DNA of 64,000 bases, taken from positions 1,266,593-1,330,592 of the forward strand of contig DP000238.1 in NCBI GenBank assembly GCA_000200715.1, read 5' to 3'. Both the position numbers and the translations under genes were made by a program. The first letter of the stretch is position 1; each line of letters begins with the position of its first letter. This document shows, piece after piece, positions 2,255 through 7,771 of the stretch. Below the pieces are notes generated by a model. That model did not search any database, had not been told where the DNA came from, and saw only the letters and a program-made list of their open reading frames with translations. Source of the DNA: Cenarchaeum symbiosum A (GTDB taxonomy: Archaea > Thermoproteota > Nitrososphaeria > Nitrososphaerales > Nitrosopumilaceae).

Positions 2255-2264
2255 TAATATAAAA
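2255..2264 (-). promoter_or_regulatory. TATA-like box of rpl12
   Basis: On the minus strand this reads TTTTATATTA, centred just under 30 nt before the rpl12 ATG at 2230. It supports independent, leaderless transcription of rpl12 away from L1 and L10. Confidence 0.65.
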
Positions 2265-2355
2265 CTATAGAGAAATTAGTGTCCTCGGCTGGAAAGCGCA
2301 TCACATGTGATATGATATTCCCATCCGGCCATGCCTAAGCGGATTTCCACGGCTT

Positions 2356-3000
2356 CTAACAATTCGTGTCCAAGCCGATTCTACGGAAAAGTTCCCATTC
2401 TGGAGATCTCCCTGTCCCATTTCCCCCCAGTGTGACGTTCCAGACCTCCCATCTAGGGTCTTTTGAGCCTTGGTCGGTCTCAGATATGCCGGGGTCTTGG
2501 TCATCCTCCCCGGCCTCCAAATCTTGGTCATCCTCCGTGCCCTCTGGACTCTGGCCGTCTCCCGGCCCCTTACCACCCCCCGCCCCTTGTTTGTCCTCGG
2601 GGTCATTTCCCCCGGCACCCTTATTGTTGGACAGGGGATATTTCCCCCCGGGGGGACCAGCGTGTCCCATTATGCCCTCCATCATGCATCGTGGCATGTA
2701 GACTGGCTCTATGTCTGGGCCGTAATGCCAACCAATGAACTTTTTATCTTCCCAACTACTCGATCCCACTCCCTTTTCTACAAACTCACAAAATGTGCAC
2801 AGTGGGCGCGGCACTACAGCTATGTTCTCCGGAAAATCGCGAATTACGGCCTATGCAGCCCGTGACGTACAGGTTGATTCCATATACAGGCCATCCCGCG
2901 TCGTCATGCGGCTAACTGTAAAGTTCCCAAGAATATCGCATGCGCCGTGCGTCCGTCCAAAAGCTCTCGCATCTGCCACCTTGGAGGTCATCCTGGCCAT
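2356..3000 (-). pseudogene. Hypothetical acidic protein gene with in-frame amber
   Basis: From the ATG at 3000 the frame is open for 49 codons and ends in TAG at 2851-2853. It then continues in the same frame (AVIRDFPENIAVVPRPLCTF onward) to 2356. A TATA-like AT-rich stretch at about 3022-3036 sits at the leaderless distance from the ATG, so the upstream half looks like the natural start. The second half has CTFCEF, a PRCMMEG segment and then a low-complexity Gly/Asp/Glu-rich tail. A GTG at 2814 could start a shorter 152-residue product. I recognise no family. The best reading is a gene broken by one nonsense mutation; a sequencing error at 2851 is possible. Confidence 0.45.
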
Positions 3001-3151
3001 CACGTAACTACGGCCCTAAGGGAAAAAAATTTGGGAGAAAATTCTGTTTCGTTGCTTGATGGCACTCGGCGCCGCCAGTTACCAGCACGGGTGGGACGCC
3101 GGATTACCCTATCAGAGCCCCGCCATGTCATTTCGGGTAAACCGGCCGGTC

Positions 3152-3562
3152 CTACTGCATGTGGTCCGCCGGCGCCTGCGGTGCGGGGTACCGCCACCCC
3201 ATTATGTCATAAACAGAAGGCTCCGGACCTGCCGGAATCCCTAGGGGTTGTCCCGTGAGGACATCCCCCCAATGCTGCCAGTTGGGCACGCACCTCCTTA
3301 TGGGCTCCCTACACACTATCACATCTTCCACGCCAAAGGCTCGGCTATCTCTGTTCAGTATGTCATATTCCTTTTTAGTGAGGTCACTAAAAGTGTTGCA
3401 GATCCCCCTAGTCAGCTCCAACCCCGGTGGATAATAACACTTCACTTCGGTCAATAGATGGGTGGATACGGCGGCTGCAGCAATGCACAAGACGAGTATG
3501 ACGGCCCTCCTGACGGTAATCCACCGGCGCAGGCGGCCTGATACAGTTCCGAGCAATGCCAT
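3152..3562 (-). CDS. Membrane-anchored NWQHWGDVL-family protein, copy 1
   Basis: The 136-residue product has one N-terminal membrane span (about residues 17-37) and an external domain with several Cys: KCYYP, a GICN block, a VCREPIRRC-like block, then NWQHWGDVLTGQPLG. It matches the product at 4477-4863 along its length, so the two are duplicates. I chose the ATG at 3562 because a TATA-like box at 3586-3593 sits 28 nt upstream, exactly as in the second copy; the frame is open further upstream but those codons are not conserved. The function is unknown. It is likely anchored outward in the cell membrane. It lies in the island between ribosomal genes L10 and L12. Confidence 0.6.
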   Translation of the reverse strand: MALLGTVSGRLRRWITVRRAVILVLCIAAAAVSTHLLTEVKCYYPPGLELTRGICNTFSDLTKKEYDILNRDSRAFGVEDVIVCREPIRRCVPNWQHWGDVLTGQPLGIPAGPEPSVYDIMGWRYPAPQAPADHMQ

Positions 3563-3585
3563 CGCACGCAGTGGCTCGTGCAGCG

Positions 3586-3593
3586 ATATAAAC
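3586..3593 (-). promoter_or_regulatory. TATA-like box of NWQHWGDVL copy 1
   Basis: The minus strand reads GTTTATAT followed by CGCTG. The same GTTTATATCGCTG block precedes the second copy at identical spacing, so the duplication included the promoter. Confidence 0.6.
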
Positions 3594-3698
3594 CGCCTCT
3601 GCGAGGCCCGGCCAAGTTGATGCGTCAGTTCACGGGTGTTGGTAAATAGATTCCTCGCCGGCGCAGAACCAGCATCTTCCCCAAACGTTGCCCGTTCT

Positions 3699-4173
3699 CT
3701 ATGGCGCATCTACGTCAGTGGCCACATAGGAGAAGCAGTCCGTCCTCACACTGTCTTCCATGAAGAGACCGCGGCGCAGGACTTTATCGGAGCACTGGTG
3801 TGAAAAATCCGAGGGTTCCCGGTCGTAATATCTGATGATCAAGTATGCGCTTCTGTTGTCATCACTTGCAGCATAGTCGAACTCGACAGGATTCATGCTA
3901 TAGTTGGTGAATACTATGTCGCGCCCCCCGTACATCTCATGGAATGCCTCCACCTCCGGAAGGCCCCTTATCTCATCCATGTGGTCCTCCACGGAACCAT
4001 AGTAGGCGGAGTTTTCAAACGGCCAGAGACTTCATGTGTCGTTCGTGCCTGTCCGCTGCATGGAACACCCAGACGGCAACCCTGGCGGCCACGACCAGCA
4101 AGACTATGATGATCGCCATCACTACCAGCCGGTTGATGGTCGGGTCATCCGCCATACGCAGTTGTACGGTCAT
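3699..4173 (-). pseudogene. Frameshifted single-span membrane protein gene
   Basis: An ATG at 4173 opens a frame with a clear membrane span (VVMAIIIVLLVVAARVAVWV) that stops at TGA 4015-4017. Just before the stop, another frame takes over with FENSAYYGSVEDHMDEIR and continues through GGRDIVFTNYSMNP and FSHQCSDKV to 3699. The two halves read as one membrane-anchored extracellular protein broken near 4016-4024. The start overlaps the end of the upstream cupredoxin remnant by 4 nt, suggesting the two genes were once translationally coupled. The family and function are unknown to me. Confidence 0.55.
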
Positions 4174-4496
4174 GGTTCCCGCACCTCAAGCCAGCCTTGC
4201 ATCCACGGATGGACTAGACATCAATACCCATAGTGTCCCGTGTCAAGCCCGCCGGTATCAAGGGAGTATGTCCTGCCAGGCACGATTATCCCGGTCTCAA
4301 ACGCGCCGTCCGGCCCCTTGCCGGGCGAGATCTCCGAACCAGGCTACCCGCTTGCCAGATTGTGCCATAACGGGCTGTCGTTGGACCATGTTATGCGGAT
4401 GCCGCGCGGTGCAGCCACGTACGCCTTGTCAAAGTGTGCGCCGTAGGGGCATTCCAAGTTCTTCTGCCAAATGCTGTTAAGGGATCCGAGACATGC
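4170..4496 (-). pseudogene. Blue-copper (cupredoxin) gene remnant with two stops
   Basis: One minus frame reads YVAAPRGIRITWSNDSPLWH, then ASG, TAG (4344-4346), PGSEISPGKGPDGAFETG, IIVPGRTYSLDTGG, GHYGY, TGA (4221-4223) and CLVHPWMQGWLEVREP. This is a thaumarchaeal plastocyanin-like domain: the four type 1 copper ligands are all visible (His of LWHN, then Cys, His and Met of CLVHPWM). Two in-frame stops interrupt it, the second just before the ligand Cys. No signal peptide or clean start is visible, because the 5' part runs into the end of the copy 2 gene at 4477. It ends overlapping the next gene. Such proteins carry electrons in Thaumarchaeota; this copy looks dead. Confidence 0.75.
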
Positions 4497-4863
4497 CAGT
4501 CCATCCCTGCTGGATCTCTCCCGAGCTGCCGAGGGGTCGGCCCGAGAGGACATCCCCCCAATGCTGCCAGTTGGCCGCACATTTCTTTCTCGGTTCTATG
4601 CACCTTATTACATCCTCATGTGTGCCCATCGGGGGAGGTGGGGGGTAAAAGCTTTCCAGTATTGTACGCTCCCTTTCAGTAAGGTCATCAAGGTGATTGC
4701 AAATCATTCTCCTCAGCTCCATCTCCGAGGGATAATAGCACTTCATTTCGGTCGATAGATGGGCGAATACAGCGGTTGCGGCAATACATGAGACTAATAT
4801 GATGGCCCTCTTGACAGTAATCCGCCGCCTCAGGTGGCCTGATGCTGATTCAAATAATGTCAA
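4477..4863 (-). CDS. Membrane-anchored NWQHWGDVL-family protein, copy 2
   Basis: This 128-residue product is a paralogue of the one at 3152-3562. It has a basic ITVKR stretch, a membrane span (about 16-34), MKCYYPSEMELRRMICN, a proline run (PPPPP) and CAANWQHWGDVLSGRPLG. An ATG at 4878 would also work, but alignment with copy 1 and the TATA-like box at 4887-4894 favour a TTG start at 4863, giving the same 28-nt spacing as copy 1. The last 17 codons differ from copy 1 and overlap the cupredoxin remnant. Function unknown; probably an outward-facing membrane protein. Confidence 0.6.
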   Translation of the reverse strand: MTLFESASGHLRRRITVKRAIILVSCIAATAVFAHLSTEMKCYYPSEMELRRMICNHLDDLTERERTILESFYPPPPPMGTHEDVIRCIEPRKKCAANWQHWGDVLSGRPLGSSGEIQQGWTGMSRIP

Positions 4864-4886
4864 CGTGATCAATGGCATGCTCAGCG

Positions 4887-4894
4887 ATATAAAC
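4887..4894 (-). promoter_or_regulatory. TATA-like box of NWQHWGDVL copy 2
   Basis: The minus strand reads GTTTATAT followed by CGCTG, the same block and spacing as before copy 1. Confidence 0.6.
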
Positions 4895-4931
4895 TGCCTA
4901 TGAGGACGGACAGATACCGGTTTGAGTATTC

Positions 4932-5590
4932 CTACCCCGGACGCACTAGATTCAGCTCCTCCTCCACGTTCTCCCAGGCGCTGAATATCTTGTAATTATT
5001 GACTGAGGGAAGAATGCCGCACCAAGGGAAGTAGTGGCGGGTATCCACCAAGGGGTAGCCCTCAGAAGCAGCCGAAAATATGCAAATCGTTCCCCTGTGG
5101 ACGCCTATCAGGGTGGCCACATCCTCCCCATGGTGGACTATGGCAGCCCCGCTGTCCCCTGTTTGGGACGGATATTTGGATATGCCCATGTTGCGGAGAA
5201 AAGTATCGCCGGCAAACTCTGTGGCATTCTTGAACATGATGGTGCTATGCCCGTTATTATGCCAGCCGTAAGCGGTAATGGTCTCGAGTTGGGATATGAT
5301 ACAACTGTGGCGTGCCAGTACCTGTGAGCGTTTACGGTGCTCGTGGATTTGGCTGCAGGCAACGTGCCACGTTAGGGCATGAGACTATGCTGCACAGTTC
5401 GGTCTGGAATTTGGAAGATACTCATGTCATTTGGCTGCCCACTCTTTGATCCATGTCGCCCATATTGGGCAGGGCCAGTAGAGTCCCTCTGCGATCAGGC
5501 TTTGTGACGATGTGCCCCGCCACCCTTCATCGACCCGCTATCCGCAACTGTCGTAGCTGCCTACGCCATCCTGATGGCCAGAAGCCCCAT
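4932..5590 (-). pseudogene. Trypsin-like serine protease remnant
   Basis: The 3' half is an open frame from about 5384 to 4932 containing SQTGDSGAAIVHHGEDVATL (the Ser of GDSGA near 5148-5159) and IGVHRGT, typical of the C-terminal barrel of S1-fold proteases. Upstream, in a different frame, RVAGHIVTKPDRRGT (about 5490-5526) looks like the catalytic-His strand and ends at TGA 5422-5424. The His-to-Ser spacing, about 120 codons, fits the family, but the parts lie in different frames and I find no start, signal peptide or catalytic Asp. It looks like a decayed secreted protease. The upstream limit is approximate. Confidence 0.6.
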
Positions 5591-5626
5591 TATTCGTACA
5601 GGATAGAACAGGTTGCAGGGCCCCGC

Positions 5627-6493
5627 TCAGGCAGGTGTGTAGCCCTTTGCCTTTGAGGCAAGGGAGCGCGCCGAAGCGTCCGCCTTTTGTATGATCTGCT
5701 CGGAGGTCTCGTCGGTCATAAAGGCCGATTCTACCGACAGCGAGCGCGCATGCTGTGCAGCCCGCGCCAGCACCTGTCCGACATTCTCCGGCGTGACATA
5801 TGCGGCCTCCACTGATAGCGATAGCGCCTCCTGGTGCGCCTGTGCAAACCCGGCCCTTATCGCCTCTACGTCCACAGCCAGATCCTCCCTGGAATAGATT
5901 ACACCCTCTTCGAGCGCCGATTCGAGCGCGATGACAGCCTCTACTGGCTTTATGTCGAGCTTGCCCAAGAGAGGGGCCAGCTTGTCCCCGATGGGCTCGC
6001 CCTTTTTGACGGGGGTGGTATCCTTGAGTATCCATATTGTCCCCTGGTCTATCTTGGTCGGTATCCCTGCCTCCTTGAACTCTGTAAGCATGGGCCCGGG
6101 GGCTATGCCCGTGTTCTTTGCGGGGACAGTCACGTCAATGCTGGCTATGTCGCCAGCCCTTGCCGCCATCATGGTCTTGTTCTTTTTGAGCAGCACATTG
6201 AGCGTAAACGGGGAGATATCCGTAAACATGAACATGCACTGGCCTGTAAGCTGGTCCATCATCTTGTCCATGCCGGGCACATCAGTCTTTGCAAGCGCCT
6301 TGCGCGCCACCTTGTCCTTTATGCTGAAAAACGATACTGAATCCCGGAGCTTTTTTCTCAGCGGGAGTATCTGCGAGGCGCGTATAGACTCCATCCTTAC
6401 CAGGGCCATCACCTTGTGCTTTTTCGGCAGCTCCTGCAGGTCCGCGTACATCTGGGCTTTTCCGGCGGGGTAATCTGTACGGTTCTCGCGCAT
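5627..6493 (-). CDS. rpl10: Ribosomal protein P0/L10
   Basis: The 288-residue protein is the archaeal stalk base, which binds 23S rRNA and carries L12 dimers. The N-terminal rRNA-binding domain includes KKHKVMALVRMESIRASQIL; the central insertion seen in archaea (IDVTVPAKNTGIAPGPMLTE) is present; and the helical C-terminus (about 200-285) carries the L12-binding spine. The usual acidic tail ending in a GLSSLFG-like motif is absent; the protein ends SLASKAKGYTPA. The ATG directly follows the L1 stop codon, so the two are co-transcribed. L12, its partner, is displaced downstream behind the exported-protein island. Confidence 0.95.
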   Translation of the reverse strand: MRENRTDYPAGKAQMYADLQELPKKHKVMALVRMESIRASQILPLRKKLRDSVSFFSIKDKVARKALAKTDVPGMDKMMDQLTGQCMFMFTDISPFTLNVLLKKNKTMMAARAGDIASIDVTVPAKNTGIAPGPMLTEFKEAGIPTKIDQGTIWILKDTTPVKKGEPIGDKLAPLLGKLDIKPVEAVIALESALEEGVIYSREDLAVDVEAIRAGFAQAHQEALSLSVEAAYVTPENVGQVLARAAQHARSLSVESAFMTDETSEQIIQKADASARSLASKAKGYTPA

Positions 6494-7243: not shown

Positions 7244-7771
7244 CTACTGGTTCGAGAGGATCTTGAGGCTGCGGCTTACAGAGTACAGGTTCCTCCGCAG
7301 GTCCTTGTCCAGGAGCGTGTCGCCCTTCTGCTTGAGGGTCCTCTTTGCCGTGTCCCGCTCAGGGCCCGGAGGCAGGGACAGCACGTTGTTTATCAGCTCG
7401 GGGATCTCCTCGCGGATCCACCCGTCAAGTATCGAGTACGACTTTGGGGAGATCACCTCGAACCTCTCCTTTTTCGTGTCCATCACCTCGGTAAAGTTGT
7501 CCTGCTCAACCCGGTAGATCAGAGCAAATATGGCGTTTTGTGCAGTGGGGTTTTGCAGGATCTCGACCGAGCGCGGGCCCGCCTTGCCCTGCTCCACCTT
7601 GTTCTTTAGCCCTACCGGGTCTATCAAGAGTCCGTTGACCCCCATGCGGTCGCCATCCACCCCGGTTATGGCGCCAAATGCAAAGTCCTTGTACTCGCCG
7701 TCTCCGCGCGGCAAAAACACGTACAGCCCCTCTTTTAGCGCCGCAGGCTTGCGTCCAAGCATGGTCGGCAT
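7244..7771 (-). CDS. Conserved hypothetical protein upstream of L1
   Basis: This 175-residue soluble protein has no motif I can name. It begins with a probable beta-rich part (EGLYVFLPRGDGEYKDFAFG, then AITGVDGDRMGVNG). A helical part follows (REEIPELINNVLSLPPGPER) and the C-terminus is basic. An ATG at 7762 is a likely alternative start, because the TATA-like AAATAAAT (7784-7791) is about 25 nt from it. The position beside ribosomal genes suggests a housekeeping role, but that is only context. It is not L11, which one might expect here: L11 motifs are absent. Confidence 0.7.
   Translation of the reverse strand: MPTMLGRKPAALKEGLYVFLPRGDGEYKDFAFGAITGVDGDRMGVNGLLIDPVGLKNKVEQGKAGPRSVEILQNPTAQNAIFALIYRVEQDNFTEVMDTKKERFEVISPKSYSILDGWIREEIPELINNVLSLPPGPERDTAKRTLKQKGDTLLDKDLRRNLYSVSRSLKILSNQ

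Follow-up and report, generated by a model that had tools for sequence, protein, structure and literature searches.

A probable remnant of a transposon-like cassette of exported-protein genes between the ribosomal protein genes L10 and L12 of Cenarchaeum symbiosum A

In Cenarchaeum symbiosum A, the genes encoding ribosomal proteins L10 and L12 are separated by an island of mostly broken exported-protein genes, which is the subject of this work. It lies in a stretch of 64,000 nucleotides (the window) of a genome that forms one contig of 2,045,086 bases; coordinates are positions within the window unless marked as genome. The spacing from L10 to L12 is 3,399 bp, and both genes, as well as those of the island, are on the minus strand (Table 1). 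The local order is L12, island, L10, L1 and an unnamed gene, all on the minus strand, followed by alaS on the plus strand. The open reading frame (ORF) at 7244-7771 corresponds to this unnamed protein adjoining alaS, and the true L11 is found at genome 290 kb, about 980 kb from the L10 locus. A first-pass annotation of this DNA had placed about 3.4 kb between L10 and L12 on a single strand and had described remnants, a frameshift, an amber codon and two intact paralogues, all of which could be located. Its description of the island was accurate; what it overlooked was a terminal inverted repeat beside L10, a paralogous cluster at another genomic locus, and the fact that in this lineage L10 and L12 are not organised as an operon.

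Table 1. Coordinates of the features in and around the L10-L12 gap and of four repeat-bounded units elsewhere in the genome
Feature	Position	Strand	Remarks
Ribosomal protein L10	5627-6493	-	
Expected site of 8-bp target duplication, AGTAGAGT	5477-5484		once in window
Right terminal inverted repeat, outer end 5476	5389-5476	-	reads 5'-GGCCCTGCCCAATATGGGCGACATGGATC, consensus GGCTCTGTCCAATATGGGTGCCATGGATC
Trypsin-like serine protease remnant, C-terminal half with GDSG	4932-5297	-	tblastn 60% identity, residues 107-226 of intact paralogue
Membrane-anchored Cys-containing protein, 133 aa, open	4477-4878	-	dN/dS 0.41-0.50 versus paralogues
Cupredoxin remnant	4173-4433	-	in-frame TAG and TGA relative to paralogue
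TM162-family membrane protein, frameshifted	3699-4173	-	2-base deletion
Gene-conversion tract	3495-4375	-	81-100% identity per 100-column block to 1.482 Mb cluster
Membrane-anchored Cys-containing protein, 185 aa, open	3152-3709	-	chimera of two paralogues from other cluster
Match to 3' flank of other cluster	3065-3120		56 bp, 80% identical
Possible inner fragment of second inverted repeat, weak	3024-3045	-	same orientation as right repeat
Acidic ORF with amber codon at 2851-2853	2356-3003	-	
L12 promoter box, ATAGTTTTATATTA	2255-2268	-	TTTTATAT begins 34 nt before ATG
Ribosomal protein L12	1934-2230	-	
Unit of 2.8 kb: 228-aa protein and serpin	466585-469412 (genome)		perfect 8-bp direct repeat ATCCAGAA
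Unit of 1.8 kb: 251-aa protein and TM162	1235139-1236982 (genome)		perfect 8-bp direct repeat CGGCTAGA
Unit of 4.8 kb: 853-aa protease and serpin	1252733-1257504 (genome)		perfect 8-bp direct repeat AGATTTAA
Unit of 2.4 kb: double cupredoxin	1809314-1811748 (genome)		TGTCAGCA/TCTCAGCA, 7/8, if ends shifted

The protease remnant keeps the serine of its GDSG motif but, according to the family alignment, has lost the half that bears the catalytic His and Asp, so that the Ser part of the triad is all that remains. In the intact paralogues, the His-Asp-Ser triad stands in the contexts VVAAHS, NVDxAFIP and GDSG, which are invariant in four paralogues or homologues; this family matches Pfam Trypsin only below the cut-off, and its profile found no match by sequence in PDB. 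The cupredoxin family is related to amicyanin/plastocyanin-type domains. For the TM162 family, structure prediction gave a fair model (pLDDT 74) that had no match in PDB, and for a paralogue of the membrane-anchored proteins it gave a poor one. A search with the acidic ORF returned no relative. In simulations of neutral drift, the 133-codon ORF stayed open in 1.5-2.5% of runs at the higher divergences and in 7% at the smallest one; for the C-terminal part of the 185-codon ORF, the corresponding values were 3.6-5.8% and 15%. Since so few simulations keep these frames open, selection probably acted on both open paralogues for much of their history. An origin as foreign DNA recognisable by composition was considered and rejected, the G+C content of the island (51-58%) being about equal to that of its surroundings. 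A viral or proviral origin was rejected as well, as viral contigs gave no relatives of TM162 or of the protease.

Blastn first revealed that the sequence separating the protease remnant from L10 matches other loci of the same families. Aligned copies of this repeat are about 70-95 bp long and have the common outer end GGCTCTGTCC. A sequence-only model built from six copies, that of the island among them, was used to scan the whole genome, in which it found 10 strong copies and a weak one; the island copy, itself one of the six in the model, scored E 2e-22. The same scan of seven relatives, including one of the same genus, showed the repeat to be absent. The island repeat is 84% identical to the one located 5' of the 853-aa protease, and the similarity runs inward for 137 bp in all. 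It lies 5' of the protease remnant just as in the unit of that protease, with its outer end facing L10 from a distance of 150 bp. A weak extra copy (locus L217, 1545-1608; genome 1158543-1158615; E 0.0004 in 211 kb) directly follows a tRNA-like sequence, and no partner was found for it. As to the island itself, tRNA-linked integration was discarded, the window being without a tRNA gene.

Eight of the repeat copies pair up in inverted orientation, all with the same outer terminus, to delimit four units of 1.8-4.8 kb. Three of these units have perfect direct repeats of 8 bp lying right at their junctions; the chance of such a match is about 3e-5 each for random 8-mers of the genome, and when the pairings of the three units were swapped only 2-3 of the 8 positions agreed. 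The cargo comprises exported proteins of the island families (trypsin-like protease, cupredoxin and TM162), serpins and two other exported proteins, those of 228 and 251 aa. No transposase is enclosed by any repeat pair, a screen of the whole genome for transposases not having been made. With terminal inverted repeats at both ends, passenger genes without a transposase and target duplications, the four units have the features of non-autonomous passenger-gene transposons similar to mobile insertion cassettes (MIC). One could propose that the repeat is instead a regulatory element, such as a promoter or terminator region shared by co-regulated exported proteins, as it stands 5' of cargo genes at several places. 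However, the four units also have it 3' of the cargo, inverted and with the same outer terminus, and in three of them the perfect duplications lie just outside the repeats, making this proposal extremely unlikely.

The families of the island are also found, in the same order and mostly intact, in a second cluster 210 kb away (locus L035, genome 1.4787-1.4842 Mb), which comprises a protease, a membrane protein, a cupredoxin, a TM162 protein, another membrane protein and, after these, a further protease and a cupredoxin protein of 477 aa. A short match ties the 3' flank of this cluster to the sequence that follows the 185-aa gene. Part of the island is far closer to the cluster than the rest: five blocks of the tract reach 97-100% identity, outside it identity falls to 54% and 44%, and its edges are inside genes. 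Synonymous divergence (dS) between island and cluster is 0.08 in the tract (TM162) and about 0.45-1.0 elsewhere. Because of these abrupt edges inside genes and the contrast in dS, we attribute the tract to ectopic gene conversion between the island and the cluster. The common 3' flank and the five genes collinear at both places might suggest plain segmental duplication, in which part of the 1.482 Mb cluster would have been copied to a site beside L10, through homologous or illegitimate recombination, and would later have decayed; in that case the repeat would be no more than the old 5' flank of the protease. That the island has one repeat end only, and the cluster none, would agree with this. 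However, a cluster without the repeat cannot have been the donor in its present form, and the island repeat stops at the conserved outer terminus, 150 bp from L10. Thus, we consider segmental duplication unlikely.

The explanation that we favour, with a probability of about 75%, is that the island derives from a non-autonomous, transposon-like cassette of passenger genes and is its decayed remnant, with the right end kept and the left one lost. It is called a cassette-derived remnant and not a working member of the group because only the right terminal inverted repeat is present. The intact cassette would have had two terminal inverted repeats of about 70-95 bp, with GGCTCTGTCC ends, around one or two exported-protein genes, without transposase and with an 8-bp target duplication. 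It would have arrived by transposition, landing some 150 bp beyond the L10 stop codon, in the gap that separates the convergent L10 and L12 in relatives. After landing, the protease would have lost its first half and the cupredoxin and TM162 genes would have gained stops or a frameshift, and about 0.9 kb would have been overwritten through gene conversion with the 1.482 Mb cluster. The left end was probably lost in a rearrangement that also put L12 on the L10 strand and parted L1-L10 from L11. The inversion of L12 and the loss of the left end may have been a single event, for instance recombination between inverted repeats. L12 would tolerate the island as it forms a transcription unit of its own, served by a conserved promoter.

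Several observations must be counted against a cassette origin. Neither a left repeat nor a second AGTAGAGT was found for the island, so that there is a single recognisable end. No terminal repeats are detectable at the 1.482 Mb cluster, where copying need not have used them. Searches against Pfam and NCBIfam revealed no transposase domain in the tested ORFs of the units, and in the fourth unit the duplication matches only if the ends are shifted. Moreover, there is one assembly only, and no empty allele within the same species has been seen. A 22-bp fragment that might be what is left of a second repeat gave E 0.007 in 12 kb with one model (R1) and 0.04 in 8 kb with another (R2), which is suggestive only. 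A second half-unit (genome 1610098-1610189) has likewise lost its other end.

The first-pass annotation took L10 and L12 to be neighbours on one strand, as in a ribosomal operon, and this premise does not apply to the order to which C. symbiosum belongs. Among 61 genomes compared, L10 and L12 are on a single contig in 52, and in 49 of these the two genes are convergent (within 1 kb of each other in 44 of the 49); the same is true of all of 72 further named loci, 11 of them with a gap above 1 kb. L12 is on the L10 strand only in the present genome and in G006 and G016. Thus, co-directional adjacency of L10 and L12 in relatives, which an operon interrupted by an insertion would presuppose, was not found. 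Intact island genes between L10 and L12 of relatives were looked for and not found, and the gap in the same-genus genome G001 measures about 0.3 kb, which favours an insertion. The two origins that had been suggested, an insertion or a decaying operon of surface proteins, were both right in substance.

Where relatives have larger gaps between L10 and L12, these contain unrelated genes, including a histidine kinase in G029. In G016 (locus L091, 4729-12540), the gap encodes a 1355-aa Eco57I-type methylase, a PLD-type protein and a 920-aa SNF2-like helicase resembling DISARM DrmD, and is a candidate defence island. That of G006 (locus L049, 3025-5434) has in tandem a LivK-like periplasmic binding protein and a shorter related ORF. 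Given the restriction-modification genes in G016 and the LivK-like binding protein in G006, the L10-L12 gap is a recurrent insertion site. The other flank of the ribosomal block also attracts insertions, as seen in G001, with an IS630 transposase and restriction-type genes upstream of L1 (locus L036, 1116-2180 and 2728-5544).

In relatives, the unnamed gene and alaS are located past L12, and L11 and NusG upstream of L1. To derive the present gene order from theirs would require at least two rearrangements, and the island is best read as sitting at a rearrangement junction. A gene order so unlike that of relatives, in a genome that is probably a composite assembly of environmental clones, could also be an artefact, with the rearrangement and the broken genes resulting from a mixed sponge-symbiont population, for example by a chimeric join near the island. 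However, there are several lesions of more than one type, the edges of the conversion tract fall inside genes on both sides, the region upstream of L12 is intact and canonical, and L12 is on the L10 strand in two other genomes too. Therefore, an assembly artefact is very unlikely.

The TATA-like box that had been assigned to L12 is real and is conserved upstream of L12 in relatives. The 10 regions upstream of L12 that were compared, the present window included, all have ATAGTTTTATATTA or a near variant of it, and TTTTATAT starts 32-34 nt before the L12 ATG in all 72 named loci. Because this TATA box is conserved at a fixed distance before the ATG, L12 is very probably an independent transcription unit that the island does not cut off from its promoter. 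Compared with the archaeal L11-L1-L10-L12 ribosomal operon, the genes are the same; however, this order has L12 convergent with L10 and under a promoter of its own, and in the present genome L11 is distant. Between the TATA box and the ATG there is also a perfect palindrome, GTCGGGC-CT-GCCCGAC (2234-2249), which is found a single time in the window (probability by chance about 0.01) and is not among the other L12 upstream regions compared; it is possibly an operator or a hairpin.

The protease family was found in nine of 400 genomes of the order, and in G006 a trypsin-like protease of this family adjoins a serpin. TM162 has one weak relative in the 400-genome scan (G100), the membrane-protein family is represented outside the present genome by weak fragments only, and none of the families was found in the same-genus genome G001. 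In the 1.235 Mb cassette of C. symbiosum, an exported protein of about 250 aa adjoins the TM162-type protein, and the two are also neighbours in the distant G100, as judged by eye (loci L076, 6375-7576, and L092, 1866-3236, the latter in G100). This hints that the exported protein and TM162 are a two-gene module older than the cassettes.

The units resemble MIC and other transposase-less elements with insertion sequence (IS) ends in their inverted-repeat ends, target duplication, passenger genes and lack of an own transposase. The literature on MIC concerns bacteria or annotation tools (PMC3129680, PMC6542083, PMC5444012). In contrast, the units have ends of about 70-95 bp, an archaeal host, a cargo of serpins, protease and copper proteins, and no matching autonomous element was seen. 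IS6 elements have ends with terminal GG..CTGT, which the ends of the units may share. The 8-bp target duplication is common to the units and to the IS6 family, with its miniature inverted-repeat transposable elements (MITEs) and tIS (PMC7986276). However, IS6 elements are of about 0.8 kb with inverted repeats of about 14 bp and a transposase (PMC7986276), whereas the units combine far longer repeats with the absence of a transposase. Of 21 thaumarchaeal genomes, that of C. symbiosum A alone was listed as having no IS-like transposons, and transposons with passenger genes (composite transposons) were described as a class that had not been detected in archaea (PMC6563490). No published description of the inverted-repeat units was found in the literature searched, the 2006 genome paper being outside that search.

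What is already known is the presence of serpins and trypsin-like proteases in C. symbiosum and of protease-serpin neighbourhoods in sponge-associated archaea. Serpins are reported to adjoin extracellular proteases in Ca. Nitrosospongia ianthellae, and both serpins and trypsin-like proteases have been described in C. symbiosum (PMC6790972, PMC7848895). Such pairs of sponge-associated ammonia-oxidising archaea are similar to the protease-serpin unit of C. symbiosum and to the pair in G006; however, the reported pairs involve subtilisin-type (S08A) proteases, and no mention of inverted repeats or target duplications was found in the passages considered (PMC6790972, PMC7848895).

In this order, an island in the L10-L12 gap interrupts no operon, since L12 is convergent and independent there. 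More tentatively, and at somewhat less than even odds, we propose that the symbiont spreads and reshuffles presumed host-interaction genes (secreted serpins, a trypsin-like protease and cupredoxins), whose products may function in the sponge host, by means of a dedicated family of cassettes that have common ends and no transposase of their own and are mobilised by one acting in trans, with gene conversion among the copies adding diversity. The repeat ends, the duplications and empty sites in population data offer a handle on whether the units move. If this proposal is true, units carrying serpins, protease and cupredoxin would show by what route an animal symbiont came to multiply the proteins that it secretes.

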